From assembly GCF_900104775.1 (NCBI RefSeq), contig NZ_FNSA01000003.1:4402001-4466000 (forward strand): 64,000 nt of DNA, written 5' to 3'. The DNA comes from Tsukamurella tyrosinosolvens (GTDB taxonomy: Bacteria; Actinomycetota; Actinomycetes; Mycobacteriales; Mycobacteriaceae). Shown piece by piece: positions 44,411 to 63,071 of the stretch. Each line of letters begins with the position of its first letter. The stretch's first letter is position 1. The notes under the pieces are model-generated. The model did no database searches. It saw nothing but the letters and a program-made list of their open reading frames with translations, and was not told where the DNA came from. Position numbers and translations under genes: made by a program.

Positions 44411-45499
44411 TCAGCTCCGCGCGGTCTCGGTGAGCCGGAAGGGGCCCAGCACGGTGCGCAGCTTGTTGCGGGTCTCGGCCAGTTCGGCCTGCGGATCCGA
44501 CGCGCCGACGATGCCGCCGCCCGCGTAGGCGCGCAGCCGCGCACCGTCGAGCTCGGCGCACCGGATGCTGACCCGCCAGTGCCCGTCGCCGTTCGCGGCG
44601 GTCCAGCCGACCGCGCCGGCGTAGAAGCCCCGCTCGCCCTCGATGTCGGCGATGGCACGGGCCGCGGTGCGCCGCGGGAAGCCGCACACGGCGGGGGTGG
44701 GGTGCAGCGCGAGCGCGAGGTCGAGGGCGCTGGTCGCGGGGTCGGCGAGGCGGCCCTCGATCTTGGTGCCGAGGTGCCAGACGGGCCCGGCCCGGGTCAC
44801 CGACGGTGCGGCGGGCACGTCCAGCTCCGCGCACAGCGGCGCGAGCGCGGAGGCGATCTCGTCGACGACGTACGCGTGCTCCTCGCGGTCCTTCTCCGAG
44901 TCCAGCAGCCCCTCGGGCGAGGTCGCGGTCCCGGCGAAGGGGTGGCAGAAGACGGTGTTGCCCATCCGCCCGACGAGGATCTCGGGGCTCGAACCCACGA
45001 GCCAGCGGCCGCGGTGGGCGTCGCCGGCGGCGGCGAGGTCGACGGCGAAGGCATTGCCCTCGAGGTCGCGCTGCTCCAGGGCCGCGGCCACGGCGAGCGG
45101 ATCGAGCGGGGCGTCCGCCTCGAAGTCGACGGCGCGCGCGAGCACGACCTTCTGCAGGTCGGAGTCGTCGATGAGCGCGATCGCGCGGCGAACCCGGTCG
45201 ACGTGCTCGGCCGGCGCGGGGTGCTGGGCGGTCTGCGTCAACGTGGGCAGCTCGGCGGCGGCACCTCCGGCGGACGCGGGGACGTCGCCGAAGTGCTCCG
45301 GCACCGTCAGCGCGGCGGGATCGGCCAGGTCGAAGGGCAGCGCGCCCACGACGGCGGGGGCGGTGCCGGCGCGCAGCGCGGCGGCCGCGGCGTGCGGATC
45401 GACGAAGGTGGCCGCGGTGCCGCGGGCGGCGAGGCGCTGCCCGGCCGCGGTCAGCAGGAAGTGCGGATGGTCGCTCTCCCCGCTCGTGCTCGCCGTCAT
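44411..45499 (-). CDS. dhbC: Isochorismate synthase (DhbC/EntC)
   Basis: 362 residues, chorismate-binding fold. LQKVVLARAVDF, GSSPEILVGR, HPFAGTATS and GFYAGAVGW are family landmarks, and the Glu/Asp metal ligands follow. Converts chorismate to isochorismate. The presence of dhbB and dhbA next to it identifies the 2,3-dihydroxybenzoate pathway rather than salicylate synthesis. Starts with ATG overlapping the dhbB stop. Confidence 0.93.
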   Translation of the reverse strand: MTASTSGESDHPHFLLTAAGQRLAARGTAATFVDPHAAAAALRAGTAPAVVGALPFDLADPAALTVPEHFGDVPASAGGAAAELPTLTQTAQHPAPAEHVDRVRRAIALIDDSDLQKVVLARAVDFEADAPLDPLAVAAALEQRDLEGNAFAVDLAAAGDAHRGRWLVGSSPEILVGRMGNTVFCHPFAGTATSPEGLLDSEKDREEHAYVVDEIASALAPLCAELDVPAAPSVTRAGPVWHLGTKIEGRLADPATSALDLALALHPTPAVCGFPRRTAARAIADIEGERGFYAGAVGWTAANGDGHWRVSIRCAELDGARLRAYAGGGIVGASDPQAELAETRNKLRTVLGPFRLTETARS

Positions 45500-46119
45500 C
45501 GCAGTGCCTCCAGAACCTTGTCGGTAGTCTCCACTCTGCCGCATCGGCCCGCCACATAGGTGAGCGCGTTGGCGTGATCCTGTGCGGAGAAGTCGGCGAC
45601 GGCGTCGCGGACCACGTAGGGCTGGACGTCGCGCATGAAGGCGTCGAGCGCGGTGGTCATGATCCCGATGTGGGCGTAGATGCCGGCGATGACGAGCTGA
45701 TCGCGGCCCCAGGCCCGCATCCGCTCGGCGAGGTCCGACTTGGCGAAGGCGCTGTAGCGCCACTTGGTGAGCAGGACGTCGTCGTCGGCCGGGGTCAGCT
45801 CGGCGATGATGTCCTGGTTCGCGGTCTTGAGGCCGGGGCCCCAGAAATCGGTGAGCAGCGCGCGCTCCTCGGGGTCCTGGTCGCCGGGCTGCGCCGTGTA
45901 GACGACGGGCACGCCGGCGGCGCGGGCCGCGGCGCGCAGCGTCACGATGTTCGGCACGACGGTGCGCAGCGGCTCGGCGTCGCGCTCGAACGGGCCGACG
46001 AAGTGCTCCTGCATGTCGTGGATCAGCAGGACGGCGCGCGCCGGTTCCACGGTCCAGTCGACGGTGTCGGCGCACTCGATCTCGGGCAGGTCGTAGACGA
46101 CCGTTTTGGGCAGGCTCAC
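45496..46119 (-). CDS. dhbB: Isochorismatase without carrier domain
   Basis: 207 residues, isochorismatase domain only. Catalytic Asp in LLIHDMQ, Lys in [11 protein letters not shown], but the usual Cys position reads [11 protein letters not shown] (Ile), as in the isochorismatase PhzD. Makes 2,3-dihydro-2,3-dihydroxybenzoate and pyruvate. EntB and DhbB normally carry a C-terminal aryl carrier domain; it is missing here and is supplied by a separate gene at 53.0 kb. Overlaps dhbE and dhbC by four bases each. Confidence 0.92.
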
Positions 46120-47744
46120 AACTTCTCCTCGTTCTTCCGCGCCTCGTCCTGATGCCGGAGACGGTCCGCCAGCGCGCGCCGCAGTTCGCGGCGACTGATC
46201 TTGCCGACGCCCGTCGTGGGGAACTCGGCGACGAACTCCACCCGGTCGGGCACCTTGTACTCGGCCACGCCGCGGGCGCGGACGAACTTCTTCAGCTCGG
46301 GCACGGTCGGCCGCTCGTCCCCCGTGAGGACGACGGCGCAGGTGCGCTCCCCCAGGAACTCGTCGGCGACGGCCACGACGGCCGCGTCGATGACGAGCGG
46401 GTGGGCGAGCAGGTGGTTCTCCACCTCCTCGGCGGCGATCTTCTCGCCGCCGCGGTTGATCTGGTCCTTGGCGCGGCCCTCGACCACGAGGTGACCGCTC
46501 GGCAGCCGGCGCACGATGTCGCCGGTGCGGTAGAAGCCCTCGGCGTCGAAGGACTCGGCGTCGACTCCGCCCAGGTAGCCGCGGATCGTGTACGGCCCGC
46601 GGGTGTGCAGGTGGCCGGGCTCCCCCGCGGCGACGGGCGCGCCGTCGTCGTCGAGGACGCGCACCTCGTCGTCGGGCGAGATGGCGCGGCCCTGGGTGCC
46701 CAGGACGATGTCCTCGGGGTCGTCGTCGCGGGTGTAGTTGACCAGCCCCTCGGCCATGCCGAAGACCTGCTGGAGGCGGCAGCCGAGCTCGGGGGTCACG
46801 CGCCGCGCGGCCTCGGGCGGGAACTTGGCGCCACCCACCTGCAGGACGTCGAGGCTCGCCAGGTCCGCGGTCGCGGCGGGCGCGGCCTGCAGCCAGAGCA
46901 TCGCGAGCGGCGGCACCAGCGAGGTCATGGTCACCTTCTCCGCCTCGATCAGGGGGAAGGCCTTCGACGGTGCCGGGTCCGTCCCGAGCACGACGGTGCC
47001 GCCGGCCCAGAGGACGCCGAGGATGCCGGGGCTGCTCATGGGGAAGTTGTGCGCCACGGGCAGCACCACCAGGAAGCGAGTGCTGGGCCCGAGGCCGCAG
47101 ATCTTCGCGGACTCGCGCACGGAGTACAGGTAGTCGGCGTGGGTGCGCGGGATCAGCTTGGGCACGCCGGTGGTGCCGCCGGAGAGCTGCAGGAACGCCA
47201 GCCCTTCGGGGTCGACGGTGGCCGGCGGGCCGCCCGTGCCGTCACCGAACGGCGCGTCGTCGGCGACGAGGACGTCGACGCCGGTCTCCGCGGCGACCTC
47301 GGCGGCCAGCGCTCGGTGGTCGAAGCGATTGATCGTCGCCGCGGTGATCAGGGCCTTCGCGCCCGACGTGCGCACGAAGTGGACGAGCTCGCTGCGCCGG
47401 TGCGCGGGCAGCGCGAAGACGGGGACGGCCCCGATCCGGAACAGCCCGAACAGCACCGTGACGAACTCGGCGGTGTTCGGAAGCTGCAGCACCACCCGAT
47501 CACCCTCGGCGATCCCCCGGGCGCGCAGCCCCACGGCGGTCACTGCCGCCGCCGTGTCCAGCTCGCGGTAGCTCAGCCGCACCGGGTCGCCGGCGAGGTC
47601 CTGCGCGACGAGGGCCTCGGCGTCGCCGAAGCGCTCCGCGGCCTCGGGCAGGAAGCCGGCGAAGGTCTCGCCGGTCCAGTAGCCCGCCGCGCGGTAGCGC
47701 GCGGCGAACTCCTCCGGGAAGTAGCGGGTCTGCGTGGTGGTCAT
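46116..47744 (-). CDS. dhbE: 2,3-dihydroxybenzoate-AMP ligase (DhbE/EntE)
   Basis: 542 residues, stand-alone aryl adenylation enzyme. ATP-binding [16 protein letters not shown], the A5 region [12 protein letters not shown]7 YRTGDIVR and the A10 lysine in [11 protein letters not shown]. It adenylates 2,3-dihydroxybenzoate and loads it on the aryl carrier protein. The substrate pocket Asn/His seen in DhbE-type enzymes (here [11 protein letters not shown]) fits an aryl acid. It overlaps dhbA and dhbB by four bases. Confidence 0.95.
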
Positions 47745-48490
47745 ACGGTGGCGCCTCCGTCGACGGTGAGTACCTGCGCGGTCACGTGCCGCGCATCGGG
47801 CGAGAGCAGGTAGTCGATCGCGCCGGCGATGTCGTCGGCGTCGGCGATCCGCCCCAGCGGGATGCCCAGCCGGTGCCGGGCGAGGTCGCCGGCGATCGCG
47901 GCCTCCGCGGCGGCGGCGCCGCCGAAGGCGGTCTGCATGGGGGTGGCGGTGGAGCCGGGGGCGACCACGTTGATCCGCACGCCGCTGCCCGCGAGTTCGA
48001 GCGCGAGCGTCAGGGTCGCGCTGTGCGCCGCGGCCTTCGACGCCCCGTAGGCGCCGAGGCCGACGCGCGGGCCGTTCCCGGCGTTGGAGCCCACGACCAC
48101 GGCGGTGCCGGCGCCGCGCTCCGCCATGCGGCGGGCGGCCGCGGTGAGCACGTTCACCGTGCCCGTGAGGTTCACGGCCAGAGCGGCGGCCCAGTCCTCG
48201 GCGGCGGCGTCGAGGAGCGGTCCGGCGACGAGGATGCCCGCGCAGTGCGCGAGGGCGTCGACGGGGCCGCCGGCCTTCTCGGCGGCGTCGAGCGCGGCGG
48301 CGACGGCGGCCGCGTCGGTCACGTCGAGGACGTGCGAGGTGGCGGTGCCGCCCGCCTCGGTGACCGCCCGCGCGGTCGCGACGAGCCCGTCGGCGTCGCG
48401 GTCGGCGAGGGCGACGGGGCCGCGCCGCGCGAGCCGCAGGGCGGTCGCGGCGCCGATCCCGGAGGCGGCGCCGGTGATGAATGCGTGCAT
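47741..48490 (-). CDS. dhbA: 2,3-dihydro-2,3-dihydroxybenzoate dehydrogenase (DhbA/EntA)
   Basis: 249 residues, SDR family. [13 protein letters not shown] cofactor motif, catalytic Ser in [21 protein letters not shown], and [12 protein letters not shown]. Oxidises the dihydrodiol to 2,3-dihydroxybenzoate with NAD. It completes the DHB branch with dhbC, dhbB and dhbE. Starts 17 bases after the formyltransferase stop. Confidence 0.94.
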
Positions 48491-48506: not shown

Positions 48507-49445
48507 TCAGCCGAGATAGGCGCCGGAGTCGCCGAGGATCTTGGCGGCGGGGTGCTCGGCGCCGTCGGCGGTGCGCACCGTCTCGACGATGAGGGCGGGG
48601 TTCCCGCCGCGCCACGCGTCCTGCCCCGCGACCACGGCGATGCCGTCGCCGTCGGGAACGCAGACGCGGCCGGGCGTGCCCCCGTACCGCTTGGTGGAGA
48701 CGGAGGCTCGGGTGATCGCGAGCCGCTCGCCACGGAAGACGGTGTGGGCGTTGGGGTACGGATCGGACTGGGCGCGGATGAGGCGCTCGATCGCGTCGGC
48801 GGGCCACGACCAGTCGATGGCGCTGTCGGCGTCGGAGCGCTTGTGGAAGTACGTCGCGGCGGCGGGATCCTGCGGGATCGGCTGCGCCGTCCCGGCTTCC
48901 AGCTCGCCGAGCGACCGGGCGACGAGCGGGCCGATCAGGTCGACGGTGCGGTGGAACAGGTCGACGGTGCGGTCGGCGGGGCCGACGGCGACGGACTCCT
49001 GGGCGATGATCGGCCCGGTGTCGAGGCCCTCGTCCATCAGGTGCGCGGTGACACCCACGTGCGTCTCGCCGTTGATGAGCGCCCAGATCAGCGGCGAGAA
49101 GCCGGCGTAGCGCGGGAGCAGCGAGTCGTGGATGTTGAGGGTGCCCAGGCGCGGCATCGAGTAGATCGACGTCGGCAGCCAGGTGCGCCAGTTGTTGGCG
49201 ACGATGATGTCCGGCTCCGCGGCCGAGACCGCCTCGAAGAGGGCCTCGTCGGGCTTCTTCGCGAGGTGCACGGGCACGCCGCGTTCGGTGGCGAGTTCCT
49301 CGACGGAGTCGTTCCACATCATCTCGTACGGGTTGTTCGAGACGGGGTGGGTCACGGCGAGCGCGACCTCGTGGCCCGCATCGAGGACGGCCGACAGTGT
49401 GCGGTGGCCCCAGGTCTGGAAACCGAAGGTGACGACGCGCATCAT
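48507..49445 (-). CDS. N5-hydroxyornithine formyltransferase-like protein
   Basis: 312 residues. An N-terminal formyltransferase domain (NIHDSLLPRYAGFSPLIWAL and DTGPIIAQESV) and a C-terminal Fmt-like domain. It follows the N-hydroxylase with a four-base overlap. The pairing indicates formylation of N5-hydroxyornithine using 10-formyl-tetrahydrofolate, as in coelichelin and rhodochelin-type siderophores. It is not likely to be the housekeeping Met-tRNA formyltransferase, which sits by def genes. Confidence 0.88.
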   Translation of the reverse strand: MMRVVTFGFQTWGHRTLSAVLDAGHEVALAVTHPVSNNPYEMMWNDSVEELATERGVPVHLAKKPDEALFEAVSAAEPDIIVANNWRTWLPTSIYSMPRLGTLNIHDSLLPRYAGFSPLIWALINGETHVGVTAHLMDEGLDTGPIIAQESVAVGPADRTVDLFHRTVDLIGPLVARSLGELEAGTAQPIPQDPAAATYFHKRSDADSAIDWSWPADAIERLIRAQSDPYPNAHTVFRGERLAITRASVSTKRYGGTPGRVCVPDGDGIAVVAGQDAWRGGNPALIVETVRTADGAEHPAAKILGDSGAYLG

Positions 49446-50743
49446 GCTCCCTTCGCGGCCGCGAGGCCGCTGGTCAGGCTGGTGTCGGCGACGATCCCGT
49501 CGAGGATCTCGCCGGTGCGGACGGCGACGTTCGACAGCAGCGTCGAACCGAGGCCATGGGTGGATTCGGTGGCGCCCTGGACGTAGAGGCCCTCCAGCGG
49601 CTCGCCGTCGACGGCGAGGACGTAGTCGCGGCCGACCTGCAGGCGCTCCGGCGCGACGTCCCAGCCGGCGAGCACGTCGGTGACGCCGATGGAGCGGAAT
49701 CCGGTGGCGCACACGACGGCGGAGTAGTCCTCGCCGCTCGTCTCGCCGGCGATGCGGTCGCGCAGCGTGACCCGCACGCCGGTGTCGGACGCGACCGCCG
49801 AGGTGACGACGGTGGCGGGACGCATGAGCAGCCGGCGGTGGCCGGAGACCTTCTCCTGGTACTCGACGGCGTACAGCTCGTTGATCAGCTCCAGGTCGAC
49901 ACAGCCGTAGTTGGTGGTGGCGTGCCGGGCCATGAGCTCCGCGCGCACCTCGCCGGGCGCGTCGTAGAAGTCGTCGACGGCCTGGGGGTCGAAGACCCGG
50001 TTGGCGTACGGGCTGTCGTCGGCGGGCTGGAAACCGTAGGAGTTGAAGACGCTCTCCACCACCGCGTTCGGGTAGCTGCGGTGCAGGTGCTGGGCGACCT
50101 CGGCGGCGCTCTGCCCGCCGCCCACCACGAGGAAGCGGTGCGGGGCCGCGGGGTCCAGGTCGGCGGCGGCGAGGTGCTCGAGCAACCGGTGGTTGTGGAA
50201 CAGGCGCGGCCCGGCGGCGGCCCACTCGGGCAGCCGCTCGCGCAGTCCGGTCGCCACGACGACGGACCGCGCGCGCAGGGCGCCGTCACCGTCGGGCCCG
50301 GTGTACCGGACGAGCCAGCGCGCGCCGTCGACGGCACCGTCGATCCGTTCGACGGCGGTCACAGTGGTGCCGTAGTCGATCCGGGCGTCGACGCTCTCCG
50401 CCACCCACGAGAGGTAGTCGGTGAACTCGACCCGGGTCGGGAAGAACGTCTGGTGGTTGATGAAGTCGACGAGCCGGCCGCGGGCCTCCAGGTAGCTCAG
50501 GAAGGTGAACGGGCTGCGCGGGTTGCGGAGCGTCACCAGGTCCTTGAGGAAGGCGATCTGCATCGTCGCCCCGTCGAGGAGCATGCCGGGGTGCCAGGCG
50601 AAGGTGGGCTTGCGTTCGAGGATCGTCATCGACAGCGGCGGCAGGCCCGTCCGGTTCCGCTCATCGAGGGCCGCGGCGAGCCCCAGATTCGACGGCCCGG
50701 CCCCGATCCCGACCACATCGGCGATCGCGTGCTGCTGTCCCAT
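49442..50743 (-). CDS. L-ornithine/lysine N-monooxygenase (siderophore)
   Basis: 433 residues, SidA/PvdA/IucD family. FAD motif GIGAGPSNLGLAAAL, NADPH motif VVGGGQSAAEVAQHL and the ATGF motif (CATGFRS). FAD enzyme that hydroxylates the side-chain amine of ornithine (more likely than lysine, given the neighbouring formyltransferase). First gene of the minus-strand operon; GGGAG before the ATG. An IdeR-type box lies 25 bases upstream. Confidence 0.93.
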   Translation of the reverse strand: MGQQHAIADVVGIGAGPSNLGLAAALDERNRTGLPPLSMTILERKPTFAWHPGMLLDGATMQIAFLKDLVTLRNPRSPFTFLSYLEARGRLVDFINHQTFFPTRVEFTDYLSWVAESVDARIDYGTTVTAVERIDGAVDGARWLVRYTGPDGDGALRARSVVVATGLRERLPEWAAAGPRLFHNHRLLEHLAAADLDPAAPHRFLVVGGGQSAAEVAQHLHRSYPNAVVESVFNSYGFQPADDSPYANRVFDPQAVDDFYDAPGEVRAELMARHATTNYGCVDLELINELYAVEYQEKVSGHRRLLMRPATVVTSAVASDTGVRVTLRDRIAGETSGEDYSAVVCATGFRSIGVTDVLAGWDVAPERLQVGRDYVLAVDGEPLEGLYVQGATESTHGLGSTLLSNVAVRTGEILDGIVADTSLTSGLAAAKGA

Positions 50744-50860: not shown

Positions 50861-51892
50861 GTGTTCCGGATACCCCGCATCACCCGATCGATCGTGACCA
50901 TCGCCGCCGCATCCGCCCTGCTCATGGGCACTGCGGCCTGCGGCTCGGGTTCGTCGAACGACGAGCACGCACAGCACGACGCGGGCTTCCCCGTGTCGAT
51001 CGCCTCGGCGCTCGGCACCACCGAGATCAAGGCCCGGCCGGAGCGCGTGGTCACCCTCGGTTGGGGCAGCACCGAGGCCGCGATCGCCCTCGGCGTGACG
51101 CCGGTGGGCATGCGCGACATGAAGTCGGAGCTCGGTAAGGACGGCGGCGGAATCATGCCGTGGGTGCAGGAGAAGCTCGGCGACGCCAAGCCGGTGCTGC
51201 TGCCCGAGTCGAGCCAGTCGCTGCCGCTGGAGCAGATCGCGGCGCTCAAGCCCGACGTGATCCTCGCGGTGCAGTCCGGCCTCACCGCGGACCAGTACGC
51301 GCAGCTGACCAAGATCGCGCCGACCGTCGCCCAGCCGGGCCGCAACTGGCAGACCTCGTGGCAGGACCAGACCACGCTCGTCGGCAAGGCCCTCGGTCGC
51401 GAGGCCGAAGCGAAGACCCTGATCACGGACACCGACAAGCGGATCGCGGACGTCAGGGCCGCGCACCCGGAGTTCGCCGGGAAGACGGTCGCGGCGGCCA
51501 GCGGCACCACGCCCGAGAGCCTCAATTTCTACTTCGACACCGACCCGCGGGTGCAGCTGCTGCAGGGATTCGGCTTCACCGTGCTGCCCGAGCTGGCGGC
51601 GCTGCGCGAGGCCACTCCGCCCGGCAAGTTCGCGGCGCCGGTGAGCTGGGAGAACGTGCCCAAGTACAACCCCGACGTGCTCACCTCGTGGTACCTCGAC
51701 GCCGCGAAGCGCGAGGCGACCGAGACCAATCCGTCGTTCGCGAGCCTGACGGCCGTGCAGCGCAAGGCCTACGTCCCGCTCACGGATCCGCCGCTCGTCT
51801 ACGCCGTCAGCTCGCCCAACGTCCTCGACGTGCCGTGGCTGCTGGAGCGCTACGTGCCGACCCTGTCGGCCGCCGCGAAGAACGCGGGCTGA
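50861..51892 (+). CDS. Iron-siderophore ABC transporter binding lipoprotein
   Basis: 343 residues from a GTG with AAGGAG at five bases, preferred over a longer in-frame start. Lipobox in MGTAACGSG. Two FecB-like lobes: VVTLGWGSTEAAIALG near the start and LPLEQIAALKPDVILAVQ. It captures the ferric siderophore outside the membrane for a FepDGC-type importer, whose permease genes are not in the window. Iron box 1 lies upstream. Confidence 0.93.
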   Translation: MFRIPRITRSIVTIAAASALLMGTAACGSGSSNDEHAQHDAGFPVSIASALGTTEIKARPERVVTLGWGSTEAAIALGVTPVGMRDMKSELGKDGGGIMPWVQEKLGDAKPVLLPESSQSLPLEQIAALKPDVILAVQSGLTADQYAQLTKIAPTVAQPGRNWQTSWQDQTTLVGKALGREAEAKTLITDTDKRIADVRAAHPEFAGKTVAAASGTTPESLNFYFDTDPRVQLLQGFGFTVLPELAALREATPPGKFAAPVSWENVPKYNPDVLTSWYLDAAKREATETNPSFASLTAVQRKAYVPLTDPPLVYAVSSPNVLDVPWLLERYVPTLSAAAKNAG

Positions 51893-51938: not shown

Positions 51939-52835
51939 CTACAGCCCCGCGGCCTCGAGGGCCTGCTCGTAGAGGTCGGTGGCCTCGTCCCGGGACTTGC
52001 CCGCGGCGAGGGCCTCGGCGAACACGGCGCGCAGCCGCTCCTCCCCCGCCGCCTCGAAGCGCTTGGTCCACGCCTCGGCGTCGTGGCGCCAGTAGCCGAC
52101 GACGTCGGCGCGGTCGCGCGCCCACCCGAGGCCGCGCACGTGCTTCTTGGCGGCGCGGGTGTCGGCCGCCTCCCCGGCCAACCAGAGGTAGCCGTCGGTC
52201 GGCAGGTCGACGGCGCGCAGCGCCTCCGGCAGGCGGCTCGGCGCGGCGCCGTTCCCGGTGCCGATCAGCTCGATGATCTCGGTTCCGGGACGATCGGGGA
52301 GATAGGCGATCTCGGTGCGGTCGAGGACCTCGGCGATGACGGTGACGTCCACACCGGCCGGGGTCTCCTCGAGGATCCGGGCGAGCGCGGGCAGCGCGGC
52401 GAGGTCGCCCGCGAGCACGTGCCGCGAGGCGTCCGCCGCGGGGTCGTACCAGGAGCGGGGCCCGGCGGCGAGGAGTCGCCAGCCCGGGCGGGCGGCGCGG
52501 AACCAGTCGATCGCCGGCCCGTGGCCGTGCTCGGCCACGTCGACGAGCATGCGCCGGGTGGCGGGGTCGTACGCGCGCACCGAGTAGTTCCGGTGGCCGA
52601 GGCTGCGCTCGGGATCCGCGATCTCCCAGCCGCCCAGCGCGCCCGGATCGTCGGACGGGCGGGCGCTCAGCTCGGTGCCGTCCGGCGAGAAGTAGAAGGC
52701 GATGGACTCGTCCCCCGGCGCGATGGGCACGTAGCCCCCGGCGGTGCCGCCGCCCACCTCGAACTCGAGGCGCAGCAGGTTGTCCGCGACCTGCGAGGTC
52801 GCGGTGAGGGTCAGGACGAAATCGTTCCACTTCAT
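51939..52835 (-). CDS. Siderophore-interacting protein (ferric-siderophore reductase)
   Basis: 298 residues. FAD-binding HRNYSVRAYDP and the NAD(P)-binding C-terminal lobe with YLWLAGEA (SIP/ViuB family). Reduces Fe(III) in the imported siderophore to release Fe(II). In IrtA the same domain is fused to an ABC subunit; here it is separate. Shares iron box 2 with the NRPS operon. GGAG precedes the ATG. Confidence 0.92.
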   Translation of the reverse strand: MKWNDFVLTLTATSQVADNLLRLEFEVGGGTAGGYVPIAPGDESIAFYFSPDGTELSARPSDDPGALGGWEIADPERSLGHRNYSVRAYDPATRRMLVDVAEHGHGPAIDWFRAARPGWRLLAAGPRSWYDPAADASRHVLAGDLAALPALARILEETPAGVDVTVIAEVLDRTEIAYLPDRPGTEIIELIGTGNGAAPSRLPEALRAVDLPTDGYLWLAGEAADTRAAKKHVRGLGWARDRADVVGYWRHDAEAWTKRFEAAGEERLRAVFAEALAAGKSRDEATDLYEQALEAAGL

Positions 52836-52991: not shown

Positions 52992-53228
52992 ATGTCCACC
53001 TCCCCGCTGACCGCGGACCGCGTCCGCGCCGACGTCGCCGAACTGCTGCAGGTCCCCGCGCAGTCGATCGCGGACGACGACAACCTCTTCGACCTGGGCC
53101 TGGACTCGGTGCGGGTCATGACGCTGATCCAGCGCTGGCGCGACGCGGGCGCCGCCGAGCTCGAGTTCCCCGACCTCGCGGAGCAGCCGGAGCTCGCCCA
53201 CTGGCAGCGGCTCGTGGTCGGCGGATGA
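52992..53228 (+). CDS. Stand-alone aryl carrier protein
   Basis: 78 residues. One carrier domain with phosphopantetheine Ser in LFDLGLDSVRVMTL. DhbE should load 2,3-dihydroxybenzoate here, and the NRPS C1 domain should accept it. The stop overlaps the MbtH start by four bases. In EntB, DhbB and most relatives this domain is fused to the isochorismatase. AAGGAGA lies 11 bases before the ATG, slightly far. Confidence 0.92.
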   Translation: MSTSPLTADRVRADVAELLQVPAQSIADDDNLFDLGLDSVRVMTLIQRWRDAGAAELEFPDLAEQPELAHWQRLVVGG

Positions 53229-53425
53229 ACCCGTTCGACGAGCCGGACGCCGGCTTCCTCGTGCTGCGCAACGCGCTCGATCAGCGCTCGCTGTGGCCCC
53301 GCTTCGCGGAGGTCCCCGCGGGCTGGACCGTCGAATTCGGTCCCGCCGCGCGCGAGGACTGCCGGAGCCACATCGAGGCCACGTGGACGGACCTCCGCCC
53401 GCAGCGCGCCGACCTTCCCCGTTAG
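53225..53425 (+). CDS. MbtH-like protein
   Basis: 66 residues. NPFDEPDAGFLVLRN, SLWPRFAEVPAGW and WTDLRP are the MbtH hallmarks, with conserved tryptophans. It binds and supports adenylation domains of its NRPS. Overlaps the carrier-protein gene and is followed after 27 bases by the NRPS, so the three are one operon. Confidence 0.95.
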   Translation: MNPFDEPDAGFLVLRNALDQRSLWPRFAEVPAGWTVEFGPAAREDCRSHIEATWTDLRPQRADLPR

Positions 53426-53452: not shown

Positions 53453-56400
53453 GTGACCCTCGCAGAGGCCGCCCCCTCCCCGGCTCCGGCCGGCACCGAC
53501 GCACCGGACCTGCTCCCGCTGACCGCGGCGCAGCACGGGATCTGGAACGCGCAACGGCTGGAACCGGATTCGCCGTACTACGTGGTGGGCGACGTGCTCG
53601 AGATCGTCGGCGACGCCGTCGTCGACATCGACGCCCTGCGCACGGCGATCGCCCGCACCGTCGCCGAGGCGGGCAGCCTGCGGCTGCGGGTGGCCGAGAC
53701 CCCGGACGGCCCGCGACAGTGGATCGACGACGGTGCCGCCCCGGCGCCGGACGTCGTCGACCTGCGGGACGAGCCGGACCCGCGGGCAGCAGCGGAGGCG
53801 GCCGTCGCCGCCGAGCGCGCCCGGCTCGCGGCGACGTGCGCGGGGATGACCGACCGCGACCTGTTCGCCTTCCGCGTGCTCCGCCTCTCGGACACCGAGG
53901 TCTGGTACACGCAGCTGGGGCACCACCTGGTCTTCGACGGCTACTCGGCCGCGATGCTCTCGCGCCGTGTCGCCGCGCACTACACGGCCCTCCGCACCGG
54001 CGCCGAGCCGCCGAAGTCGCCGTTCGGCTCGTTCGCCGATTTCGTCGCCGCCGATCAGGAGTACCGCGCGAGCGAGCGCCACGAGGCGGACCGCGCCTAC
54101 TGGCGCGACGAACTGACGCCCTTGCCCGAACTGCCGGAACGCCCCGGCGTCGACGGCCCCGCGGGCGAGGTCCGCACCGCGCGGACCGAGCTTCCGGCCG
54201 AGGTCTTCGACGCCCTGCGCCGGGTCGCCGACGAGTCCGGCACCACCTGGGGCGAGGCCCTCATCGCCTGCTACGCCGCCTTCCTGCACCGCACGCTGGG
54301 CGAGTCCGACGTGGTCTTCGCCATGCCGCTCATGTGCCGCAGCGGCGGCGTCGCGCTGCGCACCCCGGCGATGGCCGTGAACGTGCTGCCGCTGCGCCTA
54401 CCCGTGCGCGCCGACGACCGGCTCGCGGACCTGAGTGCCCGGGTCGCGGAGACCATGCGGCGCATGCGCGCCCACCAGCGCTACCGCGGCGAGGACCTCC
54501 CGCGCGACCTGGGCGCGCCGAACGTCGGCGCGCTGCTGCACGGGCGCGGCATCAACCTCAAGGCCTTCGACCTCACCCTCGACTTCGGGGGCTCCGAGGG
54601 CACGATGCGCAACGTCGCCGGCGGCCCGCCGGAGGACTACGGGCTCAGCGTGATCCCCACGTCGTCGGGCGGGCTGCTGCTGGGCTTCGAGGTGGACGCC
54701 CGCTCGGCGACGCAGGAGCAGGTGCAGGGCCGGCTCGACGCGGTGACCGCACTGATCACCGCACTGTCCTCGCCCGACGCGCCCGCGCTGGGCCAGGTGG
54801 AGCTGCTCCCGGAGGACCTGCGCACCGCCCTGATCGACCGCTCCCGCACACCGGAATCCGCGCACGCCCCGCAGGACGTGCCCGCCGCCCTCGACGCCCA
54901 GGCCCGCCGCGATCCCGAGGCGCTCGCCCTGGTCCACGGCGCCGAGCGACTCACCTTCGGCGAGCTCGCCGCGCGGGTGCACCGCACCGCCCGGTTGCTC
55001 CGCGCCGAGGGCGCCGGCGCCGACGACGTGGTGGCCCTGGCGCTGCCGCGCGGCGTCGACCTCGTCGTCGCGATCCTCGCGGTCCTCGACGCGGGCGCCG
55101 CGTACCAGTACCTGGACCCCGGGCACCCCGCCGCCCGGCACACCGAGCTGGTCGCGGACTCGCGCCCGGTGCTGCTGCTGACCGATGGCTCATCCGCTGT
55201 GCCCGAAAGGGTCCCGTCGATCATGCTCGACGCTCCGAACGTCCGCGCCCGACTCGAGGCGTTCTCCGGCGATCCGCTCAGCGAGTCGGAGCTCGCCGCG
55301 CCGCGGCACCCGGACCACCTCGCCTACGTCATCCACACGTCGGGCTCCACGGGCCGCCCGAAGGGCGTCGCGGCCCGCGCGGGCGGTCTCACCAGCCTGC
55401 TGCGGCACCACCGCGCGACGCTGGTGGATCTCGCCGTCGCCGGGGAGCCGGATCGTCGGCTGCGCTGCGCGCACACCTACTCCTTCTCGTTCGACGCCTC
55501 CCTCGACCAGCTGCTCTGGCTGCTGAGCGGCCATGCGCTGCACGTGTACTCGACGGAGACCGCGCGGGACGCCGACGCGCTGCTGTCCGCGTACCGCGCC
55601 GACCGCATCGACGTCGTGGACACCACCCCGTCGATGGCGGCGCCGCTCATCGACGGGGGCCTACTCGACGGCGAGCATCGCCCGTCGCTCCTGATCCTGG
55701 GCGGCGAGGCCACCGGTCCCGCGCTGTGGCGCCGGATCGCGGCCACCGGGGTACCCGCGGTCAACGTCTACGGCCCCACCGAGGCCGCCGTCGACGCCAC
55801 CGCCGCCGTCCTGGCGGGCGAGACGCCCGTCATCGGGCGGGCCGTGCCCGGGACCGCCGCCTACGCGCTCGACGGTGCGCTGCAACCGGTCCGGGACGGC
55901 GAGGTCGGCGAGCTGTACCTCGCCGGGCCGCACCTGGCCCGCGGCTACCTCGACCTGCCCGCCGCGACCGCGGAGCGGTTCGTCGCGGACCCGTTCGGCG
56001 AGCCCGGCTCCCGCATGTACCGCACCGGCGACCGCGTGCGGTGGGTCGGCGACGCCGACCGCGGCGGCTACGAGTACCTCGGCCGCGGCGACGGCCAGGT
56101 GAAGATCCGCGGCTACCGGATCGAGCTCGCCGAGGTCGAGACCGCCCTGGCCGCCGTCGCCGGCGTGACCAGCGCCGCCGCGGTCGTCCGCACGGACGCC
56201 GGCCGGGATCGCCTGGTGGGCTACGTGACCGGCGCCGTGACCGCCGACGGGGTCCGCGCCGCGCTCGGCGACGCCGTGCCGGAGCACATGGTGCCGTCGG
56301 CGGTGGTCGTGCTGGACGAGCTGCCGGTGACGATCAACGGCAAGCTCGACCGCGCCGCCCTGCCCGCGCCGGCGGTGCAGGCGGGCGGCCGCGCGCCGCG

Positions 56401-59400
56401 GACCGACCGCGAGCGGCTGCTCTGCGCGGTGGTCGCGGCCGCCTTCGACGTCCCCGAGGTGAGCGTCGACGACGACTTCTTCGGCCTGGGCGGCGACAGC
56501 ATCAGCGCGATCACCGTGTGTAGCGAGCTCCGGGCCGCCGGCCTCGACGTGCGCCCTCGGGACTTCCTCTCCGGCAGCAGCTTCGCGACCCTCGCCGCCG
56601 GAGCCACCGAGACCGGGACGCTGGACGCGGGCCCCGTCGTTCCGGCCGAGGGTGAGTTCCCCGCGCCGCCGATCGTCGCCGCGCTGCTCGATCTCACCGC
56701 GGATCGGCGGGACATCGCGGGCTACGCGCAGTGGATCGCCCCCGAGCTGCCCGCCGGCGCCACGGCCGCGACCGTGCGGGCCGCGCTGCAGTCGGTCGTC
56801 GCCGCGCATCCCGCGCTGCGGCTGCGCCTCTCGGGCGCCGCGACGCTCACCGTCGACGAGACCGCCCCGCCGCTCGAGGTCGGCGAGGGCGCGGGCACCG
56901 TCGAGGACGTGGCTGCCGACCTGGCCGCCGAGCTCGACCCCGCCGCCGGCGCCGTGCTCCGCGGGAGGATCGTGCGCGGCGACGGCGCCCCGGACCGGCT
57001 GGTCCTGGTGATCCACCACCTCGCCGTCGACGGAGTCTCCTGGCGCGTGCTCCTGCAGGACCTGCCGCAGGCGCACCGGGACGCCGCCGCGGGCCGCGCG
57101 CCCGCGCTGCGCGCCGAGGCGACGCCCTGGCGCGCGCACGCCCTCGCCCTCGCCGAGCAGGGCGAGAATGGCACGTACCGAGGCGAACTCGGCCACTGGC
57201 GGGCCGCGCTCGCCGACGCCGAGCGCCTCGGCGGGCGGCTGCTCGACCCCGCCGTCGACCGGGTCGGCACCGCCACGACCACGCGCACCCGCACCGCCGC
57301 CCCCGTCGCCTCGGCCGTCACCGACGGACTCGCCCACGCCTACCGCGCGAACGCGGAGGAGACCCTCCTCGCCGCCCTCGCCCTGGCGCTGCGCCTGCGC
57401 CGCCGCCGCGCCGGCCTCGCCCCGCAGCGGGCCGCCACGGTCACCGTCGAGGGACACGGCCGCGAGCAGGTGCTGCCGTCCGCCGATCTCGCGCGGACCG
57501 TCGGCTGGTTCACCGTGGAACACCCCGTCCGCCTGCCCGTCCCGCTGAGCGACGCGGACCTCGACGACGCCCTCGCCGGAGGCGACGCGGCCGGGCGGCT
57601 CGTCCGCGCCGTCAAGGAGGCCCGTCGCGGAGTCCCCGGCCGCGGCATCGGGTACGGCGTGCTCCGGCACCTCGACCCGGGGGCCGAGCCGCTGGGCGCG
57701 GCGCCGGACGTGGTCTTCAACTACCTGGGCCGGTTCGCCGCGCCCGACGACGGCTGGCGGCTCCCCGGCGACACGCCCTTCGCCGTGCTCGACCCCGCCG
57801 CGAAGGCGCTCGAACAGGTGCTCGCGATCAACTGCTTCGACGGCGCCGACGGACTCACCGTCGAGTGGACCGCTGCGGGCGGCGTGCTCGACGCGGCGAC
57901 GGTCGCAGAGCTGCAGGCGTGCTGGGCCGAGGCCCTGGCCGCGCTGGCCGCGCACGCCGAGCGGATCGGGCCCGACGGTGGCGGCCTGACCCCGTCGGAC
58001 CTGCCGCTCGTGACGCTGGACCAGGCCGACATCGACCTGCTGGAGCGGGACGGGCCGATCGCCGACGTCCTGCCGGCCACCGCGCTGCAGGTCGGCCTCG
58101 CGTACCAGTCCCAGCTGCTCGCCGACGGCGAGCCCGACGTCTACACGGTGCAGGCCGCGACCTACCTGGACGGCCCCGTGGATCCGGACCGGATGGCCGC
58201 CGCGGCCGCGGAGCTGCTGCGGCGCGTACCCGCGCTGCGCACGCGGCTCGGTTACACCACCTCGTCCGACGTGGTGCAGGTGGTCCCGGAGACGGTGCGC
58301 CCCGATGTCACCTTCGTCGATGTGAGCGACCGCCCGGATCCGGCGGCGGCGTTCGCCGAGATCGCCGCGGCAGAGCAGGCGCGCCGGTTCGACCCGTCGA
58401 CGGCGCCGCTCATCCGGTTCCTGCTGTGCCGCACCGGCTCCGACAGGTACCGCCTCGCCCTGACCAACCACCACTCGCTGCTCGACGGCTGGTCCATGCC
58501 GATCGCCGGCCGCACGCTGCTCGCGATCTACGCCGAACTGGGCGGCGGCCCCGCGGCGCCCGTCCCCGCTCCGCTCGACGGCTACTACCGCTGGCGCGCC
58601 GACCGGGACGTCCCCGCCGCCCGCGCGGCGTGGGCCGAGGAGTTGCAGGGCCTGGAGGCCCCGACGCTGCTGGCGCCCACGGGTTCCGGCGCCGCCGATG
58701 CCGCACCCGAGCGCATCCTGGTGGAGCTCGACGACGACCTGACGCGCGGCCTCGCCGAGCTGGCACGGGCCCGCGGCGTCACGCTGACCGGCGTCCTGCA
58801 CACCGCGTGGGGCCTGCTGCTGGGCCGCCTCACCGGGCGCCGCGACGTGGTCTTCGGCTGCCCCGTCTCCGGCCGCCCGGTGGAAGTGCCCGACGTGGGC
58901 ACGATGGTCGGGCAGCTCGGCGAGTCCATCGCGATCCGCGTGCGGGCGACGCCCGAGCAGCCCGTGGGCGAGGTCCTCGCGGACGTGCACCGCCGCGGAC
59001 TGGCACTCTCGGACCACCATCACCTCGGACTGGTGGAGATCACCCGCGCGGCCGGCCTCGGCGAGCTCTTCGACACGATGGTCGTCACGGAGAACTTCCC
59101 GCTCTCCGACCGGAGCGTGCAGCCGGTCGAGCCGGGGCTGGACCTCACGGGCGTGGACATCACCGACGCCACGCACTACCCGCTCACCGTGGTCGTCCTG
59201 CCCGGCGAGCGGCTCACGCTGGGCCTGGGCTACCGCACGGACGTGCTCTCCGAGGGGACCGTCCGGGCCTACGGCCGCTGGCTCACCCAGGTGCTGCGCG
59301 CCGTCGTGGAGGCGCCCGACACCCCGGTCGGCGCGATCGGCACCCTGCCCGCCGACGAGCGGGCGGCGATGCTCGAGCTGGGCGACGTGCCGCTCCGCGG

Positions 59401-62011
59401 CGCGTACGGGCCGCTGCTCCAGGAGTTCGGCACCCACGTCGCCGCGACGCCTGATCACCCCGCCGTCGTCTGCGAGGACCGGCAGCTGACCTACCGGGAG
59501 CTCGACGAGGCCGCGAACCGCCTCGCCCGCCGGCTGCACGCCGACGGCGTGCGGCAGCAGGACGTGGTCGCGGTCTTCGCCGAGCGCGGGCTGCCCTGGT
59601 ACGTCGCGGTCTTCGGCGTCCTCAAGGCGGGCGCGGTGTACCTGCCGCTCGATCCCTCGTACCCCGCGGCGCGCCTGCAGTTCCTCCTGGAGGACGCGGC
59701 ACCGTCGGCCGTGCTGACCTGTGGCGACGTGCCGGAGGCGGCCACCACCGCCGCCCCCGACGAGGTTCCCGTCCACGCCGTGGACCCGTGGGACACCGCG
59801 GGCGACGCGACCGACCCCGCGCACGCCCGGGCGGGCCTCACGCCGGACGCACTGGCCTACGTCATCTACACGTCGGGCACGACCGGGCGCCCCAAGGGCG
59901 TCGCGGTGAGCCACCGCGGCCTCCCCGACCTCATGGCCTTCGTGGTCGAGGTGCTCGGCTTCCGCCCCGACGAGCGGGTACTGCAGACGGGGTCGCCCAG
60001 CTTCGACATCTCGGTGCTCCAGGTGCTGGGTCCGCTGATGGCGGGCGCCACGTCCGTGATCGCGCCGGACGCCGTCCGCGTGCCGGGCGACGAGCTGCTG
60101 GACTACATCGAGCGGCAACGGGTCTCGGTGATCAACCTGCTGCCCTCCTTCCTCGCGGCGATGCCCGACCACGCCGAGGTGGACCCGTCCGTGATCTTCA
60201 TGGTGGGCGCCGAGCGCCTCGACCCGGAGCTCGCGGACCACTGGGGACGGGGCCGGCGCGCCCTGTTCAACTGCTACGGACCGACGGAGGCGACGATCAA
60301 CGCCGTCACCTGGCGGTACGAGCCCGACGACCCGGGGCCGCTGCCGATCGGCCGGCCCGATCCGAATCTGCCCTGCTACGTGCTCGACGAGGGCCTCAAC
60401 CCGGTGGGCACGGGCGTCCTCGGCGAGCTGTACCTCGCGGGCGACTCGCTGGCGCAGGGCTACCTGCACCGGCCCGATCTCACGGCGGCGACGTTCGTGG
60501 CGAATCCCTTCGGGGAACCCGGTTCCCGGATGTATCGCACGGGCGACCTCGTGGCATGGCGAGAGGACGGCACCCTCTCGTTCCACGGCCGCGCCGACCA
60601 CCAGGTGAAGATCCGGGGCCTGCGGATCGAGCTCGGCGAGATCGAGACCGCGCTCGCGCGGCAGCCCGGCGTGCGCGCCGCGGCCGTGCTGGTGCGCGAC
60701 GACCGGCTCGTCGGCTACCTCGTGCGCAACGACGGCGCGCAGCCCGATCCGGACGCGATCCGGACCGCCCTCGGCGCGGAGCTGCCGGCGCACATGGTGC
60801 CCGCGGCGTACGTCGTGCTGGACCGGCTCCCCCTGGGCCCCACCGGGAAGCTGGACCGGGACGCGCTGCCCGTCCCCGCCGCCCGCACCGATGCGGGCGA
60901 CGACCGCGCTCCCGCGACCGCGGCCGAGGAGGTCCTGCTGGACGTCGCCCGCGAGCTGCTCGGCGACGGCGTGCGCCTCGCCGATGACTTCACTGAGCTG
61001 GGCGGCGACTCGCTCATCTCCCTGCAGGTGGTCTCCCGGGCCCGGCGGCGCGGCTTCGAGCTCAGCGCGCGCGACGTCCTGGAGGGGCGCTCCATCGCCG
61101 GGATAGCGGCGCGCGCGGTCGCCTCCGCGGCGCCGGACGCACCGTCGGGCAGCGACTTCGAGCAGTTCCTCGACGTCCTGCGGCTGGACGGGACCGAGGC
61201 GGCGGACGTCTACACCGGGCGGCACCCGGCGAAGGTCGGCGTGCACACGTTCGGCGGCCAGATCCTGGCGCAGGCGATCGTGGCCTCGGGCGCGACGCTC
61301 TCGGGCACCGGTTGCCTGCCGCTGCACGCCGCGCACACCCATTTCATCGAACTCGGCACGGTCACGGAGGATCTCACCTATCGGGTGACACGGCTGCGGG
61401 ACGGCCGGGGTGCGGCGAACCGGCAGGTCACCGTCGAACAGGACGGACGGATCCTCGCGGTCATGACGCTCGCTTACCAGGCGGACGCCCCGAACCCGCT
61501 GGAGCACGCCGATCCCGCGCCGGAGGCCGGTGAGCCGTCGGCCCTCCCGACGATGGCGGAGCGCTTCGCCGGGCACGAATCGGCGTTGCGCACCCTCGTG
61601 GACGCCTCCCACCCCATCGACATGCGGTTCGCGTCGGACCCGGTGTGGGACAAGCGGGGCACCGAGGACGCGGAGAGCCGGGGCCTGGTGTGGATGCGCG
61701 CCGACGGCGCGCTGCCCGGCGATCAGGTGCTGCACGACGCCGCGCTGGCCTGGGCCTCGGACCTGACGGTGCAGGACCCGATCATCGCCCGGCACGGCCT
61801 GTCCTGGGGCTACGACCGGGTGGGGGCGGCGACGCTGAACCAGTCGCTGTGGTTCCACCGGCACACCCGGTTCGACGCGTTCCACCTCCTGGTCGTGGAC
61901 TCCCCCGTCGCGCGCGGCGGGCGGGGACTGACGACCGGGCACTTCTACGCCGACGGCGAGCTCGTGGCGACGGTGACACAGGAGGCCGTCGTGCAGGTCG
62001 TCCCGGACTGA
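53453..62011 (+). CDS. Two-module siderophore NRPS ending in a TesB-type thioesterase
   Basis: 2852 residues in one intact frame from a GTG with AGGAG upstream. Domain order: condensation (HHLVFDG at 157-163), adenylation 1 (SGSTGRPKG near 630), carrier 1 (Ser1016), epimerisation (HHLAVDG at 1188, GHGRE, FNYLGRF), condensation 2 (HHSLLDG at 1673), adenylation 2 (SGTTGRPKG near 2141), carrier 2 (Ser2520). A TesB-like double-hotdog thioesterase (about 2570-2850; Asp2770, Thr2794, Gln2843) closes the protein. Hand-read pocket codes are about DADDIGVVDK (acidic pocket, so perhaps Arg or another basic residue) and DILNMGCINK (similar to hydroxyornithine codes). Epimerisation makes residue 1 D. Product is probably DHB-D-residue-(formyl)hydroxyornithine. 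Confidence 0.93.
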
Positions 62012-62034
62012 ATCCCCAGGGACTGGAACGCGAA

Positions 62035-62068
62035 ACAGCCGCGGCCGGAGTGATCCGGCCGCGGCTGT
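62035..62068. terminator. Bidirectional terminator after the NRPS
   Basis: Perfect 15-base-pair stem ACAGCCGCGGCCGGA with a GTGA loop, between the convergent NRPS and the second binding-protein gene. Confidence 0.75.
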
Positions 62069-62084
62069 CGCGGTGTGGAGCGGG

Positions 62085-63071
62085 CTACTTCTTGAACATC
62101 TTCTCGACGACGTCGAGCGTGGCGATGGCCTTGTCGAAGTCGGGGCGCTGCACCCAGTAGGGCAGGTCAAATGCCCGGTTCGCGGTGAAGGCCGGGAGCG
62201 AGGCGTAGACCGGCTGCGAGCGCAGCGAATTCGCGTCGAAGGTCTGGCCGCTGAAGCCCACGATGAACACCGACGGCTGCGTCACCGTGCTGGGCAGCTG
62301 CTCCGGGGTGATCTCGTACGAGTCGCCGCCCGCGGTGTACGGCTTGAACTTGCCGCTCGCGAAGATCGGTGCGGCCTCGATACCCACCTTGGCGAACTCC
62401 GCGGGGACGCCGCGGTTCTCGATCAGGCCGTAGGCCTTACCCTGCGCGGTCATCGAGAGGAAGGCCACGGGGCCGGGGGGCGGCGTGATGCCGGCCTTGA
62501 CCTGCGCGATGCGCTCGTCGTACTTCTTCACGGCGTCCTGGTACACCTGCGGCTGGTCGAAGGCCTTGGCCAGGAACTCGAACTGCTGGTTCCAGCTCTC
62601 CGCCTTGTTGTCGACGACGAGGGTCGGCGCGATGGCCTTGAGCCGGTCGTAGGCGTCGTTGGTCTGCTTGAACGGGAAGCCGAGGCCGCCGCCGACGATG
62701 AGGTCGGGCTTCTCCGCGGCGATCGCCTCGAGGTCGTAACCGCCGGCCGGCCAGTGCATGAACTTGGTACCGGCCTTGGTGAAGTCGTCCTTCCACGCGT
62801 CGAAGGGCTGGGCCTTCGCCGGGTCGCGGTCGGTGTACTCGGTGACCATGGCGGTCACGGGCAGGCCGAGGTCGTACAGGTAGCCCGCGAGGTTGTAGTT
62901 CAGCAGCACGACGCGCTTCGGCTTGACCGGGATGGTCACGTCGCCCTTCACCGTGCTGACGGTGCGCGTCGCGGAAGCCTCGGTGCCGGAGTCGGTCGAG
63001 CCGCCCCCACACCCGGCGACCAGCCCGACGGCGCACAGGATGGCGACGAGGTATCGCACGTGCTTGGCCAT
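62085..63071 (-). CDS. Second iron-siderophore binding lipoprotein
   Basis: 328 residues. Signal peptide with lipobox VAGC at residue about 21. FecB-type lobes with VTIPVKPKRVVLLNYNLAGYLYDLGLP (core PKRVVLLNYNLAGY) and AAEKPDLIVGGG. It differs strongly from the protein at 50.9 kb, so it may bind another siderophore. AAAGGG upstream of the ATG. Iron box 3 lies 24 bases before the start. Confidence 0.92.
   Translation of the reverse strand: MAKHVRYLVAILCAVGLVAGCGGGSTDSGTEASATRTVSTVKGDVTIPVKPKRVVLLNYNLAGYLYDLGLPVTAMVTEYTDRDPAKAQPFDAWKDDFTKAGTKFMHWPAGGYDLEAIAAEKPDLIVGGGLGFPFKQTNDAYDRLKAIAPTLVVDNKAESWNQQFEFLAKAFDQPQVYQDAVKKYDERIAQVKAGITPPPGPVAFLSMTAQGKAYGLIENRGVPAEFAKVGIEAAPIFASGKFKPYTAGGDSYEITPEQLPSTVTQPSVFIVGFSGQTFDANSLRSQPVYASLPAFTANRAFDLPYWVQRPDFDKAIATLDVVEKMFKK

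Follow-up and report, generated by a model that had tools for sequence, protein, structure and literature searches.

A TesB-type thioesterase as the putative chain-release domain of a catechol-hydroxamate siderophore NRPS in Tsukamurella

To our knowledge, the release domains of NRPSs form a short list that comprises the serine thioesterase (TE), the reductase and the terminal condensation domain, and the chemistry of release decides whether a linear, cyclic or reduced product is formed. Type I thioesterases, which close the final module behind the last carrier, work through a serine acyl-enzyme, whereas TesB enzymes are not known to form a covalent acyl-serine intermediate of the classic cyclisation or oligomerisation type, and cyclisation of the serine-TE type would therefore not be expected of them. 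Other hotdog thioesterases of biosynthetic pathways, such as the TE15 enzymes and YbdB/EntH, are single-hotdog proteins, the former being separate proteins; editing thioesterases usually act in trans, and Leduc 2007 is said to be the reference for proofreading by YbdB. Rhodochelin-type clusters combine dihydroxybenzoate with a hydroxamate and contain an ornithine hydroxylase and a formyltransferase.

In the accessible part of a 2014 review (PMC4147253), NRPS TE domains are described as alpha/beta hydrolases and hotdog chain terminators are named for enediynes only (TE15, e.g., dynemicin); the latter use a hotdog fold for chain termination, but they belong to a polyketide pathway and to a family other than the TesB-type domain described here. 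YbdB/EntH is a hotdog thioesterase of a dihydroxybenzoate siderophore (enterobactin) pathway (PMC7190597, accessible part), in which it is a separate editing protein and not a fused domain. The available portion of a 2004 hotdog survey (PMC516016) shows no NRPS domains in its table row for TesB-like proteins and records a protein from Ralstonia in which a hotdog is combined with two AMP-binding domains. Rhodococcus siderophore clusters are treated in general terms in the open part of PMC5550956.

The window analyzed here is a 64-kb stretch of Tsukamurella tyrosinosolvens DNA, in which a single open frame, starting with GTG at 53453 and closed by a stop at 62011, encodes an NRPS of 2852 aa. Two AMP-binding, three Condensation-family and two PP-binding stretches were detected by Pfam, followed by TesB families; by our reading of its motifs, the middle Condensation-family stretch is an epimerisation domain. 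The gene and its parts are as follows.

53453..62011, + strand: NRPS gene, C-A-T-E-C-A-T-TesB, 2852 aa, GTG start (Pfam; annotation of the matching region of T. tyrosinosolvens NCTC13231)
56417..56599, + strand: carrier domain T1, residues 989-1049 (best PF00550 stretch)
58061..59374, + strand: condensation domain C2, residues 1537-1974 (best PF00668 stretch; HHSLLDG motif at residue 1673)
59435..60850, + strand: adenylation domain A2, residues 1995-2466 (best PF00501/PF13193 stretches)
60902..61120, + strand: carrier domain T2, extent approximate (GGDS motif; phosphopantetheine serine S2520, codon 61010-61012)
61145..62008, + strand: TesB-type double-hotdog thioesterase domain, residues 2565-2852 (Pfam, NCBIfam, PDB sequence search, model)
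61232..61468, + strand: first hotdog, PF13622, residues 2594-2672 (Pfam)
61616..61987, + strand: second hotdog, PF02551, residues 2722-2845 (Pfam)
61760..61762, + strand: codon of D2770, aligned with Asp204 of E. coli TesB
61832..61834, + strand: codon of T2794, aligned with Thr228 of E. coli TesB
61979..61981, + strand: codon of Q2843, aligned with Gln278 of E. coli TesB

A preliminary description of this DNA had claimed that the frame continues after carrier 2 into a TesB-type domain, and had named S2520, D2770, T2794 and Q2843; alignment placed all four residues as stated. In addition to PF13622 and PF02551, Pfam matched PF20789 at residues 2709-2847, the best NCBIfam family for the isolated domain was tesB (182.4 bits, E 1.2e-53), and the PDB sequence search returned the TesB entries 4r4u, 4qfw and 1c8u, with matches that span almost the full domain (E 5.7e-33 to 7.1e-31). 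Two tandem hotdog halves (PF13622; PF02551/PF20789) and an Asp / Ser-Thr / Gln triad, both of which the TesB-like class requires, are present; the numbering Asp204/Thr228/Gln278 and the alternation of Ser and Thr at the catalytic site of this family are reported in the accessible part of PMC7190597. The score falls short of the tesB equivalog cut-off of 292.85 bits, and judged by sequence the domain is related to TesB without being its equivalog. The predicted structure of the domain alone, built from 11 sequences, was a good model with a confident TesB fold. Compared with acyl-CoA thioesterase II (TesB; E. coli 1c8u, Yersinia 4r4u; TE4), which is a free protein, the domain is fused to an NRPS carrier, differs near the active site and presumably receives a carrier-bound substrate rather than a CoA ester.

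The comparison of TesB with PF00975 proposed in the preliminary description came out for TesB, since PF00975 was absent from the seven families matched by the 2852-aa protein (Pfam, E <= 0.001); as a positive control, PF00975 was detected at the C-terminus of a TE-type Tsukamurella NRPS (L115). An overlooked PF00975 thioesterase was ruled out for both the NRPS and the window, as all 12 matches of this genome to that family (E <= 0.001) lie outside the window. No alternative release enzyme is annotated in the matching NCTC13231 region, and the earlier statement that the cluster holds no other release enzyme is supported as far as PF00975 in the window is concerned. The domain occupies the place of a type I thioesterase, from which it differs in having an unrelated fold and the residues Asp/Thr/Gln.

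The cluster annotation was carried over by position from T. tyrosinosolvens NCTC13231, the top record of the plasmid collection, whose TesB domain is identical (290/290 residues), and nine window proteins were checked with Pfam. The NCTC13231 'plasmid' records (L009 and L010) hold groEL, htpG and pyruvate kinase and look like chromosome assembly contigs. The genes around the NRPS are listed below.

40924..42702, - strand: ABC transporter ATP-binding protein (annotation by position)
42699..44408, - strand: ABC transporter (PF00664/PF00005; annotation)
44411..45499, - strand: isochorismate synthase (PF00425; annotation)
45496..46119, - strand: isochorismatase (PF00857; annotation)
46116..47744, - strand: AMP ligase, presumed DhbE-like for dihydroxybenzoate activation (PF00501; annotation)
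47741..48490, - strand: SDR oxidoreductase, presumed DhbA-like (annotation)
48507..49442, - strand: formyltransferase, presumed to N-formylate hydroxyornithine (PF00551/PF02911; annotated as methionyl-tRNA formyltransferase)
49442..50743, - strand: ornithine N-hydroxylase, SidA/PvdA type (PF13434; annotation)
50861..51892, + strand: iron-siderophore substrate-binding protein (PF01497; annotation)
51939..52835, - strand: siderophore-interacting protein (annotation)
52992..53228, + strand: stand-alone carrier, presumed aryl carrier for dihydroxybenzoate (PF00550; annotation)
53225..53425, + strand: MbtH-like protein (annotation; present in other clusters too)
62085..63071, - strand: second substrate-binding protein (PF01497; annotation)

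Dihydroxybenzoate genes, an ornithine hydroxylase, a formyltransferase and uptake genes are all found beside the NRPS, as in a catechol-hydroxamate cluster. By its gene content the locus is a dihydroxybenzoate-plus-hydroxamate siderophore cluster, and the NRPS line probably builds an iron-scavenging peptide. The cluster can be likened to those of the rhodochelin type, from which the TesB ending and the code of the first adenylation domain set the Tsukamurella locus apart.

All adenylation-domain codes were read by hand, at positions that we take to follow the GrsA numbering. A code for hydroxyornithine is DMENLGLINK; the nine-position code of A2 in the window is DILNMGCIN, and its substrate is possibly (formyl-)hydroxyornithine. 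The first adenylation domain of the TesB-type synthetase shows DADDIGVVD or a near variant in the ten readable copies, the code of L072 (G010) being unreadable where the frame is broken upstream. In L115, the one TE-type synthetase in which this domain was read, we recognized the published threonine code (DFWNIGMVHK; PMC4169593 and PMC12283262, accessible parts), while the strings 'DADD' and 'DILN' are absent from the available main text of PMC12283262. The A2 code varies between subgroups, being DVWNVGAVN in L073, L075 and L076. Identities of the subgroup to the window are 64% for C2-A2-T2 and 73-76% for TesB, and the two do not track each other; L074 is 86% identical in C2-A2-T2 and 73% in TesB, hinting at domain exchange.

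The fusion was found in 11 of 16 Tsukamurella genomes, including that of the window, with TesB domains 73-100% identical, and a twelfth genome (G007) contains a remnant. In one of the 11 copies, whose genome is 83% complete, the frame is broken upstream (1900 aa). A scan of species genomes, with patterns favouring the NRPS-type domain, yielded 13 loci, nine of them in Tsukamurella (frames of 1900-3018 aa) and four in other genera, where the gene is stand-alone (281-315 aa). The concern that a frameshift or sequencing error might underlie the preliminary description was removed: in other Tsukamurella genomes the same fusion is likewise encoded by a single open frame, which rules out an assembly artefact and shows that the fusion is not peculiar to one genome. 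In all 11 fusions TesB follows carrier 2, and the catalytic Asp and Gln are invariant, whereas Thr is present in ten and replaced by Ser in one. The TesB domain is under purifying selection, with dN/dS of 0.11-0.41 in all 45 pairs of ten domains (Nei-Gojobori; L075, near-identical to L073, was left out of this set and of alignments A2 and A3). These values are of about the same order as those of the preceding 1000-residue C-A-T stretch (12 pairs side by side), although they are higher in seven of the nine comparisons with the window. In G007, a decayed TesB-type NRPS (L079:8574-15128, - strand) lies beside a TE-type NRPS; A2 and most of TesB are gone in frame, and the last TesB residues are kept.

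SidA adjoins the formyltransferase in 14 of the 16 genomes, and a fifteenth has SidA alone. Ten of the 14 contain only the TesB-type NRPS, in G001 and G004 its place is taken by a different NRPS, about 2280 aa long, that matches PF00975, G008 has both types, and G007 combines the TE-type NRPS with the decayed TesB-type one. TE-type loci (L115, L116, L117 and L118) thus replace or neighbour the TesB-type synthetase in four genomes; full Pfam analysis of this type covered L115 (G004) only, in which one Condensation stretch passed. The two types are about 30-40% identical over shared domains, and the TE-type synthetase is therefore not an ortholog of the TesB-type. Because TE-ended NRPSs occur at the same locus in these four genomes, the alternative synthetases carry a TE or a TesB in the same terminal position.

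With respect to the origin of the domain, a tree of 55 TesB domains (11 from NRPSs, 15 stand-alone copies from Tsukamurella, 26 other family copies and three distant ones, with a midpoint root) grouped all NRPS copies in one clade (support 100/100). The Tsukamurella stand-alone genes formed another (99/94), and the two joined in a common clade (100/97) that excluded the 26 other family copies. L038 was omitted, as its slice lacks the FGGQ motif, while three other distant rows were retained; eight loci of an earlier TesB locus set were unused, L031 covering one of the same genes. Pyruvate kinase (pyk) lies within the fetched locus of 15/15 Tsukamurella and 26/26 other stand-alone TesB genes, and pyk-linked TesB is hence a conserved housekeeping gene. 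The tree, given its midpoint-drawn root, disfavours horizontal capture of a distant TesB, and points to probably one capture of the housekeeping thioesterase by the NRPS; we infer pyk-linked TesB as the donor. In Tsukamurella, the pyk-linked proteins are 53-56% identical to the NRPS domain, yet they are stand-alone. Twenty-two positions are fixed differently between NRPS and pyk-linked copies, and 18 positions were then compared across groups. Five residues, chosen after the differences were seen, occur in 11/11 NRPS copies and in 0/44 stand-alone rows (15, 26 and 3), namely H2598, E2633, L2634, W2767 and Q2774. W2767 lies three residues before and Q2774 four after the catalytic D2770, and such changes beside the active site suggest a dedicated substrate.

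Overall, we consider it probable that this two-module catechol-hydroxamate siderophore NRPS releases its chain through TesB, a captured housekeeping thioesterase that would give a linear acid product. This assignment draws on the TesB fold with its catalytic residues, the position after carrier 2 in every fusion, purifying selection, the lack of PF00975 in the window and of any other annotated release enzyme, the TE-ended NRPS at the same locus and the five residues common to all 11 copies. Hydrolysis of the peptidyl thioester on carrier 2, as put forward in the preliminary description, would be the best explanation. In the proposed scheme, the AMP ligase would activate dihydroxybenzoate for loading on the stand-alone carrier, module 1 would add an amino acid for epimerisation by the E domain, and module 2 would add ornithine, hydroxylated by SidA and probably formylated by the formyltransferase. 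As in acyl-CoA thioesterase II, D2770, T2794 and Q2843 would then activate water to hydrolyse the thioester that holds the peptidyl chain at S2520, and the product expected from this step would be the free linear acid, dihydroxybenzoyl-D-aa-(formyl-)hydroxyornithine. As to its origin, the pyk-linked housekeeping TesB may have been duplicated and, in a Tsukamurella ancestor, fused to the NRPS, after which the surroundings of its active site would have changed.

Several observations count against release by TesB. A hydrolase elsewhere in the genome, where the 12 PF00975 matches lie, could release the chain, and the predicted product would offer only four donor atoms of the classical kind, which may mean that a step is missing. 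Carrier docking is unsupported by the CP2-TesB didomain model, a poor prediction (pLDDT 50.7), and the raised dN/dS relative to C-A-T as well as the loss of the domain in one genome may also argue against a release function. The main rival, which we regard as unlikely, is a built-in editing thioesterase that would remove acyl groups stalled or misloaded on carrier 2 or on the aryl carrier, with release by another route. It has a biochemical precedent in a hotdog enzyme of a dihydroxybenzoate siderophore pathway, as YbdB proofreads 2,3-dihydroxybenzoyl-EntB and the TesB-like enzyme RpaL is promiscuous (PMC7190597, accessible part). Editing would leave the NRPS with no other release domain and the window with no PF00975 enzyme, TesB is fused in one frame rather than acting as a stand-alone protein in trans, and the shared changes beside the active site suggest a dedicated substrate.

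Release by transfer to an amine, an alcohol or CoA, or by joining of product units on the synthetase, is also conceivable, though improbable: the predicted product is only tetradentate and might bind iron better if its C-terminus were capped or another chain were added, and the changes at 2633, 2634, 2767 and 2774 could reshape an acceptor site, but TesB enzymes are hydrolases that are not known to form an acyl-serine intermediate of the classic kind, and transfer is less likely for such an active site. We think it very improbable that a fusion accident left the domain behind as an appendage that is degenerate or has a structural role only. In G007 the frame stays open without A2 and most of TesB, so that their loss is tolerated alongside a TE-type NRPS; there, however, decay seems to affect the synthetase as a whole, and elsewhere the catalytic residues are kept in 11/11 copies (Ser for Thr once), dN/dS is well below 1 and the TesB fold is predicted with confidence.

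Chain release by a TesB domain would make this family unusual among siderophore NRPSs, as the preliminary description had remarked, and the searches agree with that remark. In open-access literature (titles, abstract starts and some passages, mostly without subscription journals), no description of a TesB-ended NRPS was found, and the accessible parts of two Streptomyces genome papers only mention a tesB gene. Among the matches listed for 394 class genomes (profile A3), none outside Tsukamurella was a full-length carrier-TesB junction; at least two such rows were from Tsukamurella, and the other listed rows ended at position 104 or before. Across 397 order genomes the full-length junction was seen in three rows, all from Tsukamurella, the other rows ending at 97 or before; at most 11 candidates were scored per genome in either search, and diverged fusions could escape. 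A TesB search of these 397 genomes, with up to six candidates scored per genome, placed only Tsukamurella in frames above 700 aa among the matches listed. Likewise, C2-A2-T2 had no listed non-Tsukamurella match above 45% identity in 401 genomes of the family, with at most two candidates per genome scored in the rows shown, where diverged fusions could escape. In the plasmid collection 81 records matched TesB, with one annotated NRPS among the best 20 of the 81, and 58 viral-contig stretches fitted the TesB pattern, none of which was confirmed as a relative. Some of the nearest carrier 2 relatives outside Tsukamurella (L097, L098 and L099) are followed by an apparent epimerisation domain, not TesB.

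The TesB ending suggests a different route of product release, and we lean towards regarding it as a distinct class of NRPS terminator, in which a captured acyl-CoA thioesterase would carry out direct hydrolysis by water, without a serine acyl-enzyme, to give linear acids. If so, the free-standing TesB sister gene of the same genomes and the TE-ended synthetase of sister species would offer a way to test how an acyl-CoA hydrolase is converted into a domain for peptide release, two release chemistries that alternate between species would be naturally compared at one locus, and a compact serine-free hydrolytic terminator could become available for assembly-line engineering. For genome mining, the rule would be to search NRPS ends for TesB families. 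Another long NRPS frame of the same genome (L080) has, by our reading, a thioester-reductase-like C-terminus. An antisense open frame of 2169 aa (55661-62170, - strand) overlaps the TesB-type NRPS gene and is most likely a by-product of very GC-rich sequence.
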